Assembly (NCBI GenBank): GCA_963169235.1
Contig: CAUJCX010000024.1
Location: forward strand, 1-64,000
Direction: 5' to 3'
DNA: 64,000 bases
DNA from: Actinomycetota bacterium
Lineage (GTDB): Bacteria; Actinomycetota; Thermoleophilia; Miltoncostaeales; Miltoncostaeaceae
Shown: in pieces, positions 10,266 through 17,412 of the stretch
How the letters are laid out: every line of letters begins with the position of its first letter
Numbering within the stretch: the first letter of the stretch is position 1
Notes under the pieces: model-generated
Databases searched by the model: none
The model's input: only the letters and a program-made list of their open reading frames with translations
Told to the model about the DNA's origin: nothing
Position numbers and translations under genes: made by a program

Positions 10266-10760
10266 CTAGTGGAGGTACGCCGCCCAGCTCATGGGCTGAC
10301 GCGGCGCCGCGACGCTGATGAAGACGTCCGGCGGCGGCGGCTTGGGCGTGGTGGCGGGGATCATCCCCACCTCCTCCGGCAGCCGGTCGGCCTTGCGGAT
10401 GTTGCACGGGGCGCACGACGTGACCACGTTGTCCCACCCCGAGCCGCCCCCGCGGCTGCGGGGGATGACGTGGTCGACGGTGAGGTGGGCAGCTGAGCCG
10501 CAGTACTGGCAGCGGAACCCGTCGCGGGCGAACACGGCGCGCCGCGAGATGCGGCGCTTCTCGTTGCGGGGCACGCGCACATAGGTGATGAGGCGGATCA
10601 CCAGCGGGTGCACGTGGCTGGCGGCGGCCGAGCGCAACTGGCGGGCGGCTTTCTCGAGCACCTCCGCCTTGTTCTTCAGCACGAGGACGACGGCGCGTTG
10701 CAGCGAGCAGACGTTGATCGGCTCGTAGGTCGCGTTCAAGACGAGTACCTGCTGCGCCAC
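10266..10760 (-). CDS. HNH endonuclease
   Basis: A 164-residue protein. The N-terminal part (VLVLNATYEPINVCSLQRAV) is typical of actinobacterial stand-alone HNH proteins. The HNH core is intact: CQYC and CAPC form the zinc-binding pairs around DHVIPRSRGG and WDNVV. The conserved Asp-His gives the general base. Such genes are widespread, chromosomal and usually not linked to restriction modules, and their role is unclear. There is no methyltransferase or phage gene nearby. The start is GTG at 10760 with only a weak GGGGTG upstream; a TACAAT box lies 39 bases further out. Confidence 0.9.
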   Translation of the reverse strand: MAQQVLVLNATYEPINVCSLQRAVVLVLKNKAEVLEKAARQLRSAAASHVHPLVIRLITYVRVPRNEKRRISRRAVFARDGFRCQYCGSAAHLTVDHVIPRSRGGGSGWDNVVTSCAPCNIRKADRLPEEVGMIPATTPKPPPPDVFISVAAPRQPMSWAAYLH

Positions 10761-10804: not shown

Positions 10805-11016
10805 GCCATCCGCGCAACCGGCACGCCGCACGCGAGTGCGCGACATCTTCGACACACCCGCCGGGCCTGATGGGTGGCGGGCGACGCGGACAGGACGAAC
10901 CCGTGTCGGCTCGCGTTCCGCCGCCCGCCCGGCGGGACGTGCCGCGCGAACCGGTCGCCGGGCGCGCACGCGGGGCGCGGGCCAGAATGGCCCCTCCCCG
11001 ACCCGGACGGTCGCCC

Positions 11017-11973
11017 GTGCCCCGCACCATCCTTCTCGCCGGCGCCGCGTGCGCCGCCCTCGCCCCGTGCGCGCCCGCGGCGGCCCAGACACCGCTGGTG
11101 CTGGTGTACGACACCGACGCGGGCGTCCACGCCCTGGTGAACCCGGCCTCCGGGCCAGGGCTCACCCCGGGCCGCGGCGCCTTGCGCCAGGAGCCCGGCC
11201 CCGGCGGCATGCTGACCGGCGGCGACCCCACCCGGTTCGCCGTGGCCAAGGTCAGCGGCGCGGACTTGGAGCACATGTCGCCCCGGGCGATGGCCTCCTT
11301 GCTGCGGGCCCGCATCCGCCGCGGCGAGCACGGCGCCCAGGCGCACCTGGTGACCGTCGACGAGCTCGGCGCGCCGTACGCCGACGCCCGTCCCCGGCGC
11401 GTGGTGCGGGGCGCGCGGCTGCCCCGCGTCTCTCCGCGCTGGCCGGGTTCACGCTTCACGCAGGCGATGCGGCTGCTCGACCGTCCCAGCCCGTACGGCG
11501 GCACGTGGGCGTCGCGCGTGCACGTCTACCTCGCCCCCACCGTGCACAGCTCCATCGCGGCGGGACGCGGGCCGCAGCGCAACCTGGGCCGCGACGGCAA
11601 GCCGCACCTGCGCAGCTGGCGGGCCGTGATGCCGGGCCTCGCCCTGGCCGGCGGGGTGCACCTGCAGATGTACCACGCCCGCGGCGGGGCGCGGTGGGCG
11701 TTCACGGCGGGCGAGTGGCGGAGGGTGCCCGCCGCCACCGTGGGGCTGCTGCGCCGCTACGGGGGCGACGCGGCCCGCGTCCACTTCGTGATGTCCGCCG
11801 TGGGCATGCCCGCCGGGGCCCCCGCCGGGTGCGGCTCGCCGGCGGCGTGCACGTGGACGCTGGCGTCGTCCACCCCGTGGGGACGCACCGTGCTCGCCAA
11901 CGGTCCCGGCGTCTACCGCATCGGACCGGACGCGCCCGACTGGCTGGCGCAGTTCAACGCGCGCTTCCCCTGA
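11017..11973 (+). CDS. secreted protein of unknown function, tandem copy 1
   Basis: A 318-residue exported protein I cannot place in a family. Signal peptide: PRTILLAGAACAALAPCAPAAAQ. The mature part shares long blocks with the next gene: ALVNPASGPGLTP, SPYGGTWASRVHVYLAP, RNLGRDGKPH, MPGLALAGGVHLQMYHA, and a C-terminal TVLANGPGVYRIG. Two cysteines (CGSPAACTW) are conserved in both copies and may form a disulfide. Conserved His, Tyr and Trp residues look like a binding or catalytic pocket. The GTG at 11017 matches the start of the second copy; an in-frame ATG ten codons upstream is possible. The two copies are separated by 54 bp and most likely arose by tandem duplication. Confidence 0.78.
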   Translation: MPRTILLAGAACAALAPCAPAAAQTPLVLVYDTDAGVHALVNPASGPGLTPGRGALRQEPGPGGMLTGGDPTRFAVAKVSGADLEHMSPRAMASLLRARIRRGEHGAQAHLVTVDELGAPYADARPRRVVRGARLPRVSPRWPGSRFTQAMRLLDRPSPYGGTWASRVHVYLAPTVHSSIAAGRGPQRNLGRDGKPHLRSWRAVMPGLALAGGVHLQMYHARGGARWAFTAGEWRRVPAATVGLLRRYGGDAARVHFVMSAVGMPAGAPAGCGSPAACTWTLASSTPWGRTVLANGPGVYRIGPDAPDWLAQFNARFP

Positions 11974-12027: not shown

Positions 12028-12990
12028 ATGCCCCGTATGCGTTTCACGATCACCGTCGCCATCGCCGCCGCCGCCGCGGTCGCCGCCACCGCCACCGCCC
12101 AGGAGCGCCTGACGCTCGTCTACGACGAGCAGCAGTACGTGGAGCGGCTGGTGAACCCCGCGTCCGGACCGGGCCTCACCCCGGCGCGCGGAGCGCTGCG
12201 CCAGGACCCCGGCGCCGGGGGCATGCTCACCGGCGGTGACGAGAACCCGTTCAAGGTCGCGAAGGTCAGCGGGCGGGCGCTGGCCGGCATGAGCGCCGCG
12301 CAGATGGCGGCCGCCCTGAAGACCCAGATCGTGCAGGGCGAGTACGGGGCCACGTCGCACCTGGTCACCATCGACGAGATCGGCAAGACGTTCGGCGACG
12401 AGCGCCCCCGCCAGATGGTGCGCAACGCCGCGCTGCCGGCGATCAGCCCGTCGTCGCCCGGCGCGCGTTTCTCGGCGGCCATGGCGATGCTGAACACGCC
12501 CAGCCCGTACGGCGGCACGTGGGCGTCGCGCGTGCACGTCTACCTCGCCCCCGCCGTGCACTCGGCGATCGGCGCGGGCCGCGGCACGCACCGCAACCTC
12601 GGCCGCGACGGCAAGCCGCACTTCCAGAGCTGGCGCGGCCTGATGCCGGGCCTGGCCCTGGCCGGCGGCGTGCACCTGCAGATGTACCACGGCGCCGGCG
12701 CGAACCGGTTCGCGTTCACCGCCACCGAGTGGCGCACCGTGCCGTCCGCGTTCGTCGGCCTGCTGGGCCGCTACGGCGGCAGCGCCTCCCGCGTGCACTT
12801 CCTGTTCTCGGACGTCGGTGCCCCCGCGGGCGCGCCCGCGTCGTGCGGCGCACCGGTGGCGTGCGAGTGGACGCTGGCCGAGGCGACCCCGGCCGGCAAG
12901 ACCGTGCTGGCCAACGGTCCGGGCGTCTACCGCATCGGCGCCGAGGCCGACGCCTGGCTCGTGGAGTACAACAAGCGCTTCCCCGGCTGA
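12028..12990 (+). CDS. secreted protein of unknown function, tandem copy 2
   Basis: A 320-residue paralogue of the preceding gene, well over half identical by eye across the mature region. Signal peptide: RMRFTITVAIAAAAAVAATATA, cleaved before QERLTLVYDE. It keeps SPYGGTWASRVHVYLAP, RNLGRDGKPHFQSWRGLMPG, LALAGGVHLQMYHG and the paired cysteines (CGAPVACEW). It carries its own strong ribosome site (GGAGGAGG, 6-9 bases before ATG) and a GATAAC box upstream, so it may be expressed independently of copy 1. The main differences are in the N-terminal third, suggesting divergent partners or ligands. Confidence 0.8.
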   Translation: MPRMRFTITVAIAAAAAVAATATAQERLTLVYDEQQYVERLVNPASGPGLTPARGALRQDPGAGGMLTGGDENPFKVAKVSGRALAGMSAAQMAAALKTQIVQGEYGATSHLVTIDEIGKTFGDERPRQMVRNAALPAISPSSPGARFSAAMAMLNTPSPYGGTWASRVHVYLAPAVHSAIGAGRGTHRNLGRDGKPHFQSWRGLMPGLALAGGVHLQMYHGAGANRFAFTATEWRTVPSAFVGLLGRYGGSASRVHFLFSDVGAPAGAPASCGAPVACEWTLAEATPAGKTVLANGPGVYRIGAEADAWLVEYNKRFPG

Positions 12991-13031: not shown

Positions 13032-13037
13032 TATCCT
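13032..13037 (+). promoter_or_regulatory. -10 box (TATCCT) of a leaderless promoter
   Basis: TATCCT is followed by 8 bases and the GTG at 13046, and no ribosome site is present. This is the layout of a leaderless transcript for the TyrA/PheA-like fusion gene. Confidence 0.45.
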
Positions 13038-13045
13038 CGGCGGCG

Positions 13046-15361
13046 GTGACCGACTCCGCCGCCATACCCGCGCCCGAGCGCCTCGTCGTGGTGGGAGCCG
13101 CCGCCGGGGCCGGGCGGGTGCTGTGCCAGCACGTCTTCGGGCGCATGCCGTGGCGCACCGTGCTGCTGATCGACCTCCCCGGCCAGGCCGCAACGCTGCA
13201 CGAGGCCGGCGACGCGTTCGCCGAGCCCCCGGTGCTGGCCACGTACGACGGCGAGCGCCTGCACGACGTGCGCGGCACGTCCGTGCTGGCCGCGCCGGGC
13301 ACGCTGGTATGCCTGGCCGTGCCGCAGACGCACCTGGGCACCGTGGCGGCGGCGTTCACGCCGCGGCTGGCCGCCGACGCCGTGGTGGTGGAGACGGCCC
13401 CGATGAAGCGGGCCGCCCAGCTGACGCTGCAGCCGGTGGTCGGCGCGCGCCACGCGTTCGGCGTCCGCCCGCTGTTCGACTCGCTGGCGCGCAGCCTGGC
13501 GGGCCAGACGATCGTGCTGACCCACGACGGCGCCGAGCCGCCGGTCGCGGCCTGGCTGCGGGGGCACGTCGAGGCCCTCGGCGGCATCGTGCAGACCACC
13601 ACGCCCGACGGTCACGACCGCGCCATGGCCACGGTGCAGACGCTCACGCAGCAGACGCTGATGGCGTTCGCGGACGCGGTGGCGTGCAGCGGGCTCGACA
13701 TCGAGGACGCGCTGTGGGCCATGCGCACCCCCAGCTTCGAGACCCTGCTGGGGCTGGCGGTGCGGACGCTCGCCGAACCCCAGCAGCCCGCCGTGGCCGC
13801 GCGCCAGGCGCAGGCCGAGGCCCGGGACGTGAGCCACCGGCTGACCGAGGCGGCCGCCGCCCTCGCCGCCATCGTGGGCCGCGACGACCCCGCGCTCACC
13901 CGGACGGCCCTCACCCGGCTGCGCGACCACTTCTCGGGCAGCCTGTTCGAGACCATCCACGGCACGGCGTCCGCCGTCGTCAGCGCGACCCAGGCCAAGC
14001 GGGCGGGCCTGGCGCGCCACCGCCGGGACGCGACCCCCGTGGGCATCGTCACCGCCGACCGGCCGGACGACCTGCGCGTGGGCACCATCGTGGAGCTCAC
14101 CCCCACCACCGTCACGCTGGACGAGGTGCTGGTGGGCACCCGTGGCGATGCCGTGCTGCTCTCGGGCGAGGGCGTGCGCAACGCGCGCGCGCTGGGAGTG
14201 GGCGGCAAGCCGCGGCGCACGGCGTTCGCGATGGGGCGCATCGACGTGCTGGCGGGCGCCGAGCTGGACGCCCACCTCGACGCGTGGCTCGCCCACATCC
14301 GCCGCGACGTCCGCTTTCTGGTGCCCGAGTCGATCGCCGGTGAGGGCGTCACCCACGTGCTGTCGCAGGTGCCGCGCGTGCGCGACGCCCGGGTGGTGTC
14401 CGAGGTGGTGCGCACCGGGCAGCGGGCCGTGGTGGTGCGCGTGGGCATCCGCGCCGATGCCGACGTCGACGCCACGGTGGAGGACCTGCGCCAGCGCGTG
14501 GCCGACGCGTACGCCTGGCCCCGCGGCCTGTCGCTACCGCGGCGGCATGCGCACCCCGTGGCCGTGCACTACCTGGGGCCCGCGGGAACGTTCTCCGAGA
14601 CGGGGGCGCGGCACTGCGCGGCCGGCCTGGGCCTGGCCGACGCCCCGCTCAACGCGCTCGGAAGCTTCGAGCAGGTGCTCGCGGCCGTCCACAGCGGCCA
14701 CATCGGCGTGCTGCCCATCGTCAGCTCGTCGTCGGGCCTCGTCGAGCGGGCCGCGCAGGCGCTCCTGGATCGCGGTCGCGGCATCGAGGCGGGCGGCGTG
14801 GCGGACGTGCCGGTGCGTTTCGACGCGTACGTGCCCGACGGCTGTCACCTGGAGGACCTGCGGGGCGCCGACGTGCTCAGCCATCCCCAGGCGCTACGCC
14901 AGTGCGCCCGCTTCATCGCCCGGTGGCGCCTGAACCCGGTGGAGACCGCGTCCACCGCGGAGGCCGGACGCGCGATCGCCCGGGGCGGCACCCCGGCCGT
15001 GGCGCTGGCGGGCGCCGGCCTCGGCGAGACGTTCGGCCTGCGCGTCGCCGAGCGCGAGGTGGACGACCTGTCCGGGTCGCTGACGCGCTTCCTCGTGCTG
15101 GGCGCGCAGGGCACGTTCGGCGCGCTCACCGGGGGCAGCGACCCCACGCTGCGCTCGCTGTGGGTCGCGGCCGGGCGCCAGCACGTCGCGGACGTGCTCA
15201 GCGGGCCGGGGCCCGCGTTCGACGAGCTGATCCAGGGCCGCACGGGCATGGTGCTGCTGGTCACCAGCCGCACCGGCGCGGACGCGGGGGCGGACGGCGC
15301 CGTGTACCTGGGGCGGCTGCCGTGGACGCCGCGCACGCCGCTGGTGCGGCTGGAGGCCTAA
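13046..15361 (+). CDS. prephenate dehydrogenase-prephenate dehydratase-like fusion with altered active sites
   Basis: A 771-residue protein of three parts. Residues about 10-310 follow prephenate dehydrogenase (TyrA): a Rossmann start (VVVGAAAGAGRVL), VETAPMK, GHDRAMATVQTLTQQTL. Where TyrA enzymes have the catalytic HPMFGP motif this protein has RPLFDS (R141-S146). Residues about 335-500 are a linker region I cannot assign. Residues about 505-690 follow prephenate dehydratase (PheA): YLGPAGTFSETGA, then LPIVSSSSG (556-564) in place of the usual PIENS, and SLTRF (T680 kept) in place of NxTRF. No ACT regulatory module with ESRP follows. It may be a pseudoenzyme, a regulator, or an enzyme of changed specificity. 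Its stop overlaps the convergent DUF4446 gene by 4 bp. Confidence 0.72.
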   Translation: MTDSAAIPAPERLVVVGAAAGAGRVLCQHVFGRMPWRTVLLIDLPGQAATLHEAGDAFAEPPVLATYDGERLHDVRGTSVLAAPGTLVCLAVPQTHLGTVAAAFTPRLAADAVVVETAPMKRAAQLTLQPVVGARHAFGVRPLFDSLARSLAGQTIVLTHDGAEPPVAAWLRGHVEALGGIVQTTTPDGHDRAMATVQTLTQQTLMAFADAVACSGLDIEDALWAMRTPSFETLLGLAVRTLAEPQQPAVAARQAQAEARDVSHRLTEAAAALAAIVGRDDPALTRTALTRLRDHFSGSLFETIHGTASAVVSATQAKRAGLARHRRDATPVGIVTADRPDDLRVGTIVELTPTTVTLDEVLVGTRGDAVLLSGEGVRNARALGVGGKPRRTAFAMGRIDVLAGAELDAHLDAWLAHIRRDVRFLVPESIAGEGVTHVLSQVPRVRDARVVSEVVRTGQRAVVVRVGIRADADVDATVEDLRQRVADAYAWPRGLSLPRRHAHPVAVHYLGPAGTFSETGARHCAAGLGLADAPLNALGSFEQVLAAVHSGHIGVLPIVSSSSGLVERAAQALLDRGRGIEAGGVADVPVRFDAYVPDGCHLEDLRGADVLSHPQALRQCARFIARWRLNPVETASTAEAGRAIARGGTPAVALAGAGLGETFGLRVAEREVDDLSGSLTRFLVLGAQGTFGALTGGSDPTLRSLWVAAGRQHVADVLSGPGPAFDELIQGRTGMVLLVTSRTGADAGADGAVYLGRLPWTPRTPLVRLEA

Positions 15362-15873
15362 ACCGCGCCGTCGGCGCCGGGCCTGCCCCCGCGGAGCGCC
15401 AGCGCGATGGCGCGCTCCTCCTCGGGCGACAGCCGCTGCGACGAGACCCCCTCGTGGATCTCCTTCACGTACATGCGGGCGTGGTCGCGCGCGTGCAGGC
15501 ACGAGATCACGGTGCCGGCCGCGGTCTGGTCGAGCAGCGCCAGCGACCACGACTGGCTGCCGCCCATGTCGCGGTAGGCGTCGTAGCGCACCAGGCCCTG
15601 GAACCGGATGACCGTGGAGAGCTCGGACGCCACGTGCTGCGACTGGCGGTCGACCAGCGCATGCAGGTCGGTGAGATCGGTGCGCAGCGCCCGGGCCTGG
15701 TCGAGCAGCGCGGCCTGGCCGTCCACCAGGTTGGCCGGCTCTCCATCGCCCAGCAGCATGCGCTGCGCCGCGCGGGTTCGGCGCACGCGCACCCACAGGA
15801 TGACGGCCAGCACCAGTGCCGCCACCCCGGGGACGGCGGCCCCGGCGATGGCGGCGAGGGTGATGGAATCCAC
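15358..15873 (-). CDS. DUF4446 family single-pass membrane protein
   Basis: A 171-residue protein. One N-terminal membrane segment (AAVPGVAALVLAVILWVRV, about residues 12-30) is followed by a helical stretch and then by the DUF4446 signature: VIRFQGLVRYDAYRDMGGSQSWSLALLDQTAAGTVIS and ARMYVKEIHEG. The family is common in actinobacteria and firmicutes, with no defined role. The start is GTG at 15873. The gene converges on the TyrA/PheA-like gene and their stop codons overlap on opposite strands, so no terminator fits between them. Confidence 0.88.
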   Translation of the reverse strand: MDSITLAAIAGAAVPGVAALVLAVILWVRVRRTRAAQRMLLGDGEPANLVDGQAALLDQARALRTDLTDLHALVDRQSQHVASELSTVIRFQGLVRYDAYRDMGGSQSWSLALLDQTAAGTVISCLHARDHARMYVKEIHEGVSSQRLSPEEERAIALALRGGRPGADGAV

Positions 15874-15894: not shown

Positions 15895-17412
15895 CTAGCC
15901 CGCCGTGATGACGATCTGGAACTCCTGGCGGTTGTTGTCGGTGTTCGTCTCGCCGCTGACCTGGCCCGACTCGATCACCAACTGCCCCTCCTTGCCGGCC
16001 ACCCACGCACCGCTCGCGGGGCCGGGCACCGACACCTGCTTGGACGCACCCGACGCGAGCGACGGGATGGTGACGGTCTGGGTGTCGACCGCGTCCGCCG
16101 TGCCCGGGTAGTACAGCTGCGCCGTCACCTTGATGTCGGTCTCCGGGAAGTCGCCGCCGTTCTTGACGTTGACCACCCACTTCAGCTCGGAGCCCGCCGG
16201 GATGTTGTTGGCGCCCGACGCGGACAGCGCCTGCCCGGACGGATCGGCCGTCACGCCCTCGACGCTGGTGCCGCGCTTGCCGCCGGACGCGTTGGTGTTC
16301 TTGGTGCCACCGCTCTTCATGCTCTTCAGCAGCGACGCGGCGCCCGCGTCGCTGGCGAACTTGTCGTTGGTGCCGGTGAGGAACAGCGTGTTGGACGCCA
16401 CCTCCAGGCCGTCGATGCTCTCCTGCCGGATCTTGGCGGCCGCCACCGTCGCGTACTCGTCCTGGTACACCACGTCGCTGGCGAGGAAGCGCTTCATCGG
16501 GTCGGACAGCTGACGCGACGCCGCGTTGGCGTTCTCACCGCGCATCACGTTGGGGATGATCTGCGACAGCAGGCTGAGGCCGCTGGCGCGCATGCGCAGC
16601 GACATCTGCAGCGCCCGGTCGGCATCGGCCAGGCCGTCGGGCGGCGACAGGGCGTCCCCGCGCTTCACCAGCGCCTTCGCGTCGACCGCCAGCTTGTCGA
16701 CCTCGGTGCGCAGGGCCGCCGCGTTCTTGCCGTCGGTGTTCTGCAGCACCTGGATGAGTTTCTTGCCGTCGGCCGACGACTGGTCGGCCAGCTGTCCGGC
16801 CTCGTTGACGTACGACTTGTACGAACCCACCATCTGGTTGCGCTGGCGGTCCTTGATGAACAGCCACAGGCCGAACACCAGGAGGATGCCGATGAGCGCG
16901 AACACCGCCAGCCGGGCCATGGGGTTCGACAGAAGGGCCGCGGGTCCGTCGGGGGGCCTGCGCGACGAGCCGCCGCCGCGGACTCCGGCCGCCCGGGAGC
17001 GACCTCCGCGCGAGCGCCGGGCGCCGGACGTGCGGCTGGATCCCGACGGGCGGGTGCGCCGCGGCCGGGGGGCCTCGTCGACGTCGTCCCCTGCGCCCAC
17101 GTCGGCGCGACCGCCACGGGGGCGCAGGCCACCGCGCTTGGACGACCGGCGGGAACCGGGCGGCGGCTCGTCACCCTGCGCGATGTCGTCGAAGCCGAAG
17201 TCCTCCACCGGCGGCTGCGCCGCGGCGGGCGGCGGTTCGGCCAGGTAGTCGTCCTCCTCGAAGAACGCCCGGGGCGTCTCGGGCTCGGGGATGTCGGCGA
17301 ACGACTGGTCCAGTTCGTCGAACTCGCGGTCCGACTTCGGCTCGGGGCGCGGGGCGCGGCCCGTCGCGCCGGTGTCGCCGGACTCGACGTCCGGGCGATC
17401 CTCGTCAGCCAT
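15895..17412 (-). CDS. single-pass membrane protein with disordered cytoplasmic N-terminus
   Basis: A 505-residue protein, not recognised as a named family. Residues 1-165 are acidic and then Arg/Gly/Ser-rich and surely disordered. One membrane helix (MARLAVFALIGILLVFGLWLFI) begins near residue 165. Outside it lie a helical region with a kinase-sensor-like mix of charged heptads (NQMVGSYKSYVNEAGQLADQ) and a C-terminal beta domain (LKWVVNVKNGGDFPETDIKV, TVTIPSLASGASKQVSVP, TNTDNNRQEFQIVI) like CARDB/DUF11-type adhesion folds. It stands 21 bp upstream of the DUF4446 gene on the same strand, so the two may be co-transcribed. ATG at 17412. Confidence 0.72.
   Translation of the reverse strand: MADEDRPDVESGDTGATGRAPRPEPKSDREFDELDQSFADIPEPETPRAFFEEDDYLAEPPPAAAQPPVEDFGFDDIAQGDEPPPGSRRSSKRGGLRPRGGRADVGAGDDVDEAPRPRRTRPSGSSRTSGARRSRGGRSRAAGVRGGGSSRRPPDGPAALLSNPMARLAVFALIGILLVFGLWLFIKDRQRNQMVGSYKSYVNEAGQLADQSSADGKKLIQVLQNTDGKNAAALRTEVDKLAVDAKALVKRGDALSPPDGLADADRALQMSLRMRASGLSLLSQIIPNVMRGENANAASRQLSDPMKRFLASDVVYQDEYATVAAAKIRQESIDGLEVASNTLFLTGTNDKFASDAGAASLLKSMKSGGTKNTNASGGKRGTSVEGVTADPSGQALSASGANNIPAGSELKWVVNVKNGGDFPETDIKVTAQLYYPGTADAVDTQTVTIPSLASGASKQVSVPGPASGAWVAGKEGQLVIESGQVSGETNTDNNRQEFQIVITAG

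Follow-up and report, generated by a model that had tools for sequence, protein, structure and literature searches.

Single polypeptide chains that combine a TyrA-type with a PheA-type domain are known from Archaeoglobus fulgidus, where the order is TyrA-AroQ-PheA-ACT (PMC1173090), and from Ca. Huberarchaea (PMC11237513). In both, the TyrA-type domain is of the indel (T-protein) kind and comes first, with the PheA-type domain later in the same chain. In archaeal TyrA-REG proteins, a TyrA domain is followed by a REG-type region (the COG4937 extension; PRK08655). In Thermoleophilia, the canonical PheA consists of a prephenate dehydratase (PDT) domain and an ACT domain (PDT-ACT, PRK11898). Here we describe a fusion gene of two uncultured Thermoleophilia that resembles each of these systems in part.

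The gene lies in a window of 64,000 nucleotides, the whole stretch of DNA that was analysed, at positions 13046..15361 on the + strand, which also carries all parts of the gene located below. It has 771 codons, starts with GTG and encodes, in this order, a TyrA-like half, a REG-like middle region, a PDT domain and a short tail. The first-pass annotation had described one 771-residue frame carrying the motifs RPLFDS, PIVSS and SLTRF; we found this frame to be free of internal stops and the motifs to lie at residues 141-146, 557-561 and 678-682, respectively. The same annotation called the order TyrA then PheA uncommon, which it is, even though the A. fulgidus chain provides a precedent (PMC1173090). 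The fusion shares the domain order and the T-protein kind of TyrA with the chains of A. fulgidus and Ca. Huberarchaea. Unlike them, it has no chorismate mutase, no detectable ACT domain and no TyrA catalytic His, its PDT site is divergent, and its bacterial host has a separate canonical TyrA. No -35/-10 pair came up in a scan for consensus promoters. A -10-like box, TATCCT (13032..13037, + strand), lies 8 bases 5' of the GTG and is kept in the orthologue (CACTATCCTC), suggesting that the transcript may be leaderless. The full-length AlphaFold model of the fusion was unusable (pLDDT 34).

The TyrA-like half (residues 12-295, 13079..13930) was delimited by its alignment with E. coli TyrA and by NCBIfam matches to PRK08655.1-3 (E 1.3e-14) and PRK11199 (E 5.8e-11), all NCBIfam equivalogs remaining under their cut-offs. 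PDH_N was sub-threshold in the fusion (E 0.008-0.03) but above cut-off in the N-terminal half of the orthologue described below (E 3e-6). This half is of the T-protein type, and no indel occurs at the HPMFGP site in the alignment with E. coli TyrA. In that alignment, which the first-pass annotation had proposed, Arg141 of RPLFDS (13466..13483; RPLFDA in the orthologue) occupies the column of the catalytic His197 in both orthologues, and this column contains no replacement His, contrary to the possibility raised there that another His might take the catalytic position. In the numbering of the E. coli enzyme, His197 polarises the 4'-OH of prephenate, Arg294 binds the substrate and His257 is required for tyrosine inhibition, and the role of the His-Asp network equivalent to His245-Asp246 has been described (PMC2954222). 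The positions of Lys178, His245-Asp246 and Arg294 (Arg240 in the fusion) are kept, and the position of His257 is occupied by Gln. The nucleotide loop reads GAAAGAGR, compared with GGGGQMGR in E. coli TyrA, and the GxGxxG pattern is thereby altered. Given the loss of the His without a substitute, the changed dinucleotide loop and the relaxed selection (see below), the TyrA-like half is probably a pseudo-dehydrogenase rather than a working enzyme. As the Arg294 and His245-Asp246 residues are retained, binding of prephenate or tyrosine may have survived.

No Pfam model matched residues 296-505 (13931..14560), and a profile search of 396 genomes of the phylum confined this middle region to the genus of the fusion; apparent matches in other genomes of the phylum were due to chance, several of them being acetyl-CoA synthetase-like. 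Searched alone, the middle region had its best, although weak, NCBIfam match in the C-terminal part of PRK08655.1-5 (E 8e-4), in which residues 388-482 (14207..14491) align with model positions 334-431. We take PRK08655 to be a mainly archaeal TyrA model, the REG extension of which may be linked to the FDX-ACB fold. When the 396 genomes were searched with PRK08655.1-5, the two fusions were collinear with the model from position 61 to ~430, while the others among the matches listed ended by position 281. These alignments fit a weak but collinear resemblance of the middle region to the C-terminal extension of archaeal TyrA (TyrA-REG, PMC1173090). Unlike TyrA-REG, the fusion is joined to a PDT domain and has lost the catalytic His, and it scores 38 bits against PRK08655, for which the family cut-off is 464. 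The model of the middle region alone (pLDDT 63) contains a helix, a small beta-barrel and a beta-alpha-beta-beta-alpha unit; a fold search with this model returned MscS-like and ferredoxin-like structures at low TM-score, which we did not accept as an identity. A chorismate mutase was also considered for this region. No CM_2 match was found there, in agreement with the earlier statement that the chain has no chorismate mutase, and the only CM_2 match of the genome lies on contig C20.

Although divergent, the C-terminal half is by its profile match a genuine prephenate dehydratase domain. Pfam PF00800 matched residues 507-688 (14564..15109) with an E value of 1.3e-25 and 90.7 bits against a cut-off of 25.2, covering positions 1-179 of 181. 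PRK11898 gave 79.4 bits against a cut-off of 219, compared with 280.6 bits for the canonical pheA of a relative (G013). Glu159, Asn160 and Asn276 (E. coli numbering) are replaced by Val559 and Ser560 of PIVSS (14714..14728; PICSS in the orthologue) and by Ser678 of SLTRF (15077..15091; identical in the orthologue). In the canonical PheA of the class (43 sequences), Asn160 is present throughout, Glu159 is found in 42 and Asn276 is at least nearly invariant; the Thr, Asp and Glu that are invariant in the class at columns 169, 171 and 183 are also changed in the fusion. On the other hand, Ser208, Pro210, Gln215, Cys216, Ser233, Thr234 and Thr278-Arg-Phe (E. coli numbering) are kept. The changed residues are no proof of inactivity, since GqqA, a PDT homologue with two of the four E. 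coli catalytic residues, was reported to complement a PDT mutant, although Glu159 and Glu232 were reported to be important for substrate binding (PMC8192741). The tail (residues 690-771, 15113..15358) has no Pfam match and no detectable ACT domain. By eye, TSR for ESR and LGRLPW for LGSYP could be read as a degenerate ACT domain, but with an ACT profile made from the sequences of relatives, residues 687-771 did not outscore shuffled versions of themselves, so that the first reading, in which no ACT domain or ESRP follows, holds.

A full-length orthologue, 67.5% identical, is encoded by Thermoleophilia bacterium HKST-UBA59 (G001, JAGQUM010000028.1), the sole genome of the same genus that was compared. 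The dN/dS values between the two orthologues are lowest in the middle region (0.23) and the PDT domain (0.28) and reach 0.62-0.64 in the TyrA half and 0.67 in the tail; the synonymous estimates are rough at the GC3 of 0.97 of the fusion gene. Thus, the PDT domain and the middle region, which are the best-conserved parts of the fusion, are under purifying selection (dN/dS ~0.25), and the TyrA half is under looser constraint (~0.63). Identity between the two genomes is 54% for the TyrA-like half, 80% for the middle region and 73% for the canonical TyrA. The relaxed constraint on the TyrA half is compatible with a plain loss of function and with a regulatory role alike. Elsewhere in the phylum sample we did not find the domain set of the fusion. 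Scanning genome contigs with the single fusion protein retrieved no relative, and a query made of the two aligned proteins retrieved only the orthologue; viral contigs contained no relative of the fusion, and plasmid matches were ordinary PheA, none of them spanning 80% of the query.

The fusion is the only PDT in its own genome, which is 96% complete, as determined by a six-frame search, and its orthologue is the only PDT in the second genome; both genomes are at least 95% complete. Each of them carries a canonical TyrA, one chorismate mutase and one chorismate synthase. Of the two canonical genes for which the first-pass annotation suggested looking elsewhere in the genome, tyrA is therefore present and pheA absent, even though a canonical PheA occurs in most other genomes of the family. 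The chromosomal locus explains this absence. In relatives, a CARDB gene, a DUF4446 gene and pheA follow one another, and then an HNH gene or a gene for an unknown secreted protein. The DUF4446 gene precedes the canonical pheA, and wherever both genes were found, in 34 of 34 relatives, they share a strand. In the two genomes with the fusion, it is the fusion that fills the place of pheA, on the opposite strand. The DUF4446 gene (15358..15873, - strand; Pfam E 5e-31) is convergent with the fusion and overlaps it by 4 bases, and the gene for a CARDB-containing protein, a conserved neighbour of the pheA locus, follows at 15895..17412 (- strand). Directly upstream of the fusion lies a gene for a putative secreted protein without a Pfam match (12028..12990, + strand), a homologue of which stands beside the canonical pheA in the same orientation at two relatives' loci (L048 and L045). 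At the other end of the locus, an HNH endonuclease-like gene (10266..10760, - strand) corresponds to the gene that comes after the canonical pheA in many relatives. The canonical pheA has thus been displaced at its own locus by an inverted fusion that, in comparison with the canonical Thermoleophilia PheA, shares the PDT domain and the locus but has changed Glu-Asn and Asn residues and no ACT domain. As a separate observation, the secreted-protein gene and its neighbour at 10870-11973 (+ strand) are tandem paralogues, both encoding putative secreted proteins without a Pfam match, and such paralogues are kept beside the pheA locus by several family members (L045, L048, L051, L069).

On balance, we regard it as just on the probable side that the fusion serves this genus as a prephenate (or arogenate) dehydratase in place of the canonical pheA, which it has displaced, and that it carries a non-catalytic, possibly regulatory TyrA-like arm. 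With the usual pheA gone and its place taken, the fusion is probably the sole source of the PDT step in the two organisms. The PDT domain would decarboxylate and dehydrate prephenate (or arogenate) toward phenylalanine, with catalysis relying on the retained Ser612, Gln619, Thr637 and Thr680-Arg-Phe, while Val/Cys-Ser and Ser would stand where the active site usually has Glu-Asn and Asn. The TyrA-like half would be non-catalytic, in line with the His-to-Arg change, the altered GxGxxG and the canonical TyrA elsewhere in the cell. Together with the REG-like middle region it could form a controlling or dimerising part, in which it would bind prephenate or tyrosine and substitute for the missing ACT domain. 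A more elaborate form of this reading, to which we give much less credence, is that a pseudo-TyrA binding prephenate or tyrosine, a PDT with a rebuilt site and a REG-like domain linking the two together make a phenylalanine-branch enzyme whose control lies with its own substrate or with the end product of the sister branch, and that this chain displaced the canonical pheA in a bacterial genus. The changed Glu159, Asn160 and Asn276 and the existence of PDT-less genomes in the class count against the replacement-dehydratase reading.

The same two observations, the former extended to the conserved catalytic-site residues changed in both halves, are what favours the strongest rival, in which neither half is catalytically active and the fusion instead binds a ligand to regulate or sense the aromatic pathway, phenylalanine being imported or made by an unrecognised enzyme, for example a non-homologous cyclohexadienyl dehydratase. 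A PDT is altogether absent in 22 of 199 genomes of the class, mostly from one family (f3) and many of them more than 90% complete, so a loss of the PDT step is possible in this class. The PDT-less genomes may belong to phenylalanine auxotrophs or to users of an unrecognised dehydratase. A dead regulator, however, is difficult to reconcile with a fusion located exactly at the pheA locus and constituting the sole PDT of two genomes, with purifying selection on the PDT domain that equals that on the middle region, and with the retention of Thr-Arg-Phe, Ser208 and Gln215, and we consider it unlikely, if still worth serious attention. The first-pass annotation had proposed a pseudoenzyme or regulator for the whole protein; for the same reasons this is doubtful as a whole, although for the TyrA half, with its lost His, altered loop and relaxed selection, it stands.

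The other proposal is that the fusion has a different cyclohexadienyl compound, and not prephenate or arogenate, as its substrate; we considered 4-amino-4-deoxyprephenate or a similar amino-prephenate as an example. This proposal gains interest from the only other His-less TyrA-like proteins met in the analysis, two stand-alone T-protein-type homologues from two other genomes on the Actinomycetota side of the phylum sample (G234 and G377), which are among the closest matches in the phylum to the TyrA half of the fusion. They carry NPMF (NPMFAP, with Asn; locus L094) and DPMF (DPMFHP, with Asp; locus L099), and their genes adjoin PabA-PabB-type aminodeoxychorismate synthase genes (L094 / L132:9741-11810 and its neighbour; L099 / L133:8721-11812). 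From this gene context, the two proteins are probably PapC/CmlC-like 4-amino-4-deoxyprephenate dehydrogenases, in whose substrate an NH2 would stand where the catalytic His contacts the OH. Among TyrA-like proteins, a change of this His may mark amino substrates. The two homologues resemble the fusion in their T-protein type and in the replacement of the His, and differ from it in having Asn or Asp instead of Arg, an intact nucleotide loop, a stand-alone architecture and a PabA-PabB-type cluster. The fusion lost both the nucleotide loop that they retain and the YWD(I/V)Q motif. Furthermore, it occupies the pheA locus, its neighbours encode DUF4446, CARDB, HNH and secreted proteins instead of an aminodeoxychorismate cluster, and the genome has a single chorismate mutase-type gene. 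Given this locus and these neighbours, an amino-prephenate substrate is conceivable for the fusion but not likely, and we rate it below the dead regulator.

A working bifunctional prephenate dehydrogenase/dehydratase, in which Arg141 or some other residue does the work of the His, would agree with the domain order of the A. fulgidus chain (PMC1173090) and with the kept Lys178, His245-Asp246 and Arg294 positions. With no His in the catalytic column, an altered GxGxxG, relaxed selection and a separate canonical TyrA in both genomes, it is very improbable. That the fusion is a decaying or mis-assembled gene without function could be suspected from the looser constraint on the TyrA half and the tail, but is largely refuted, and hardly credible, in view of an independent assembly that contains an intact orthologue, equally oriented and flanked by the same genes, the lack of stops and a dN/dS of ~0.25 in two domains.

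What makes the locus interesting, in our view, is that nearly invariant PDT residues have been lost naturally in a seemingly sole enzyme, and that a pseudo-dehydrogenase has been retained. If the replacement dehydratase is active, a PDT that serves as the only one in a natural genome can do without the usual Glu-Asn and Asn of its active site, and a dead dehydrogenase can stay beside the dehydratase of the competing branch, offering a simple cross-control at the prephenate branch point. If it is inactive, the genus lacks the PDT step and provides a testable pseudoenzyme at the pheA locus. Automatic annotation would probably label the fusion as PheA or as a TyrA/PheA bifunctional enzyme and overlook these points.

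The origin of the fusion PDT was addressed with a tree of 73 rows, in which it falls outside the PheA of its family and of its class. AU tests reject its grouping with the PheA of the family (p 0.0002) and with that of the class (p 0.0025). An in-place inversion of the local pheA is disfavoured by these tests, although long-branch attraction is possible. The two rejections favour a foreign source, and the very long branch, with the long-branch attraction it may cause, keeps this assignment tentative. The PheA sequences of three other loci in the class (L010, L026, L039) also lie outside the main clade of the class, with no DUF4446 gene found beside them, which suggests that pheA has been replaced repeatedly in this class.
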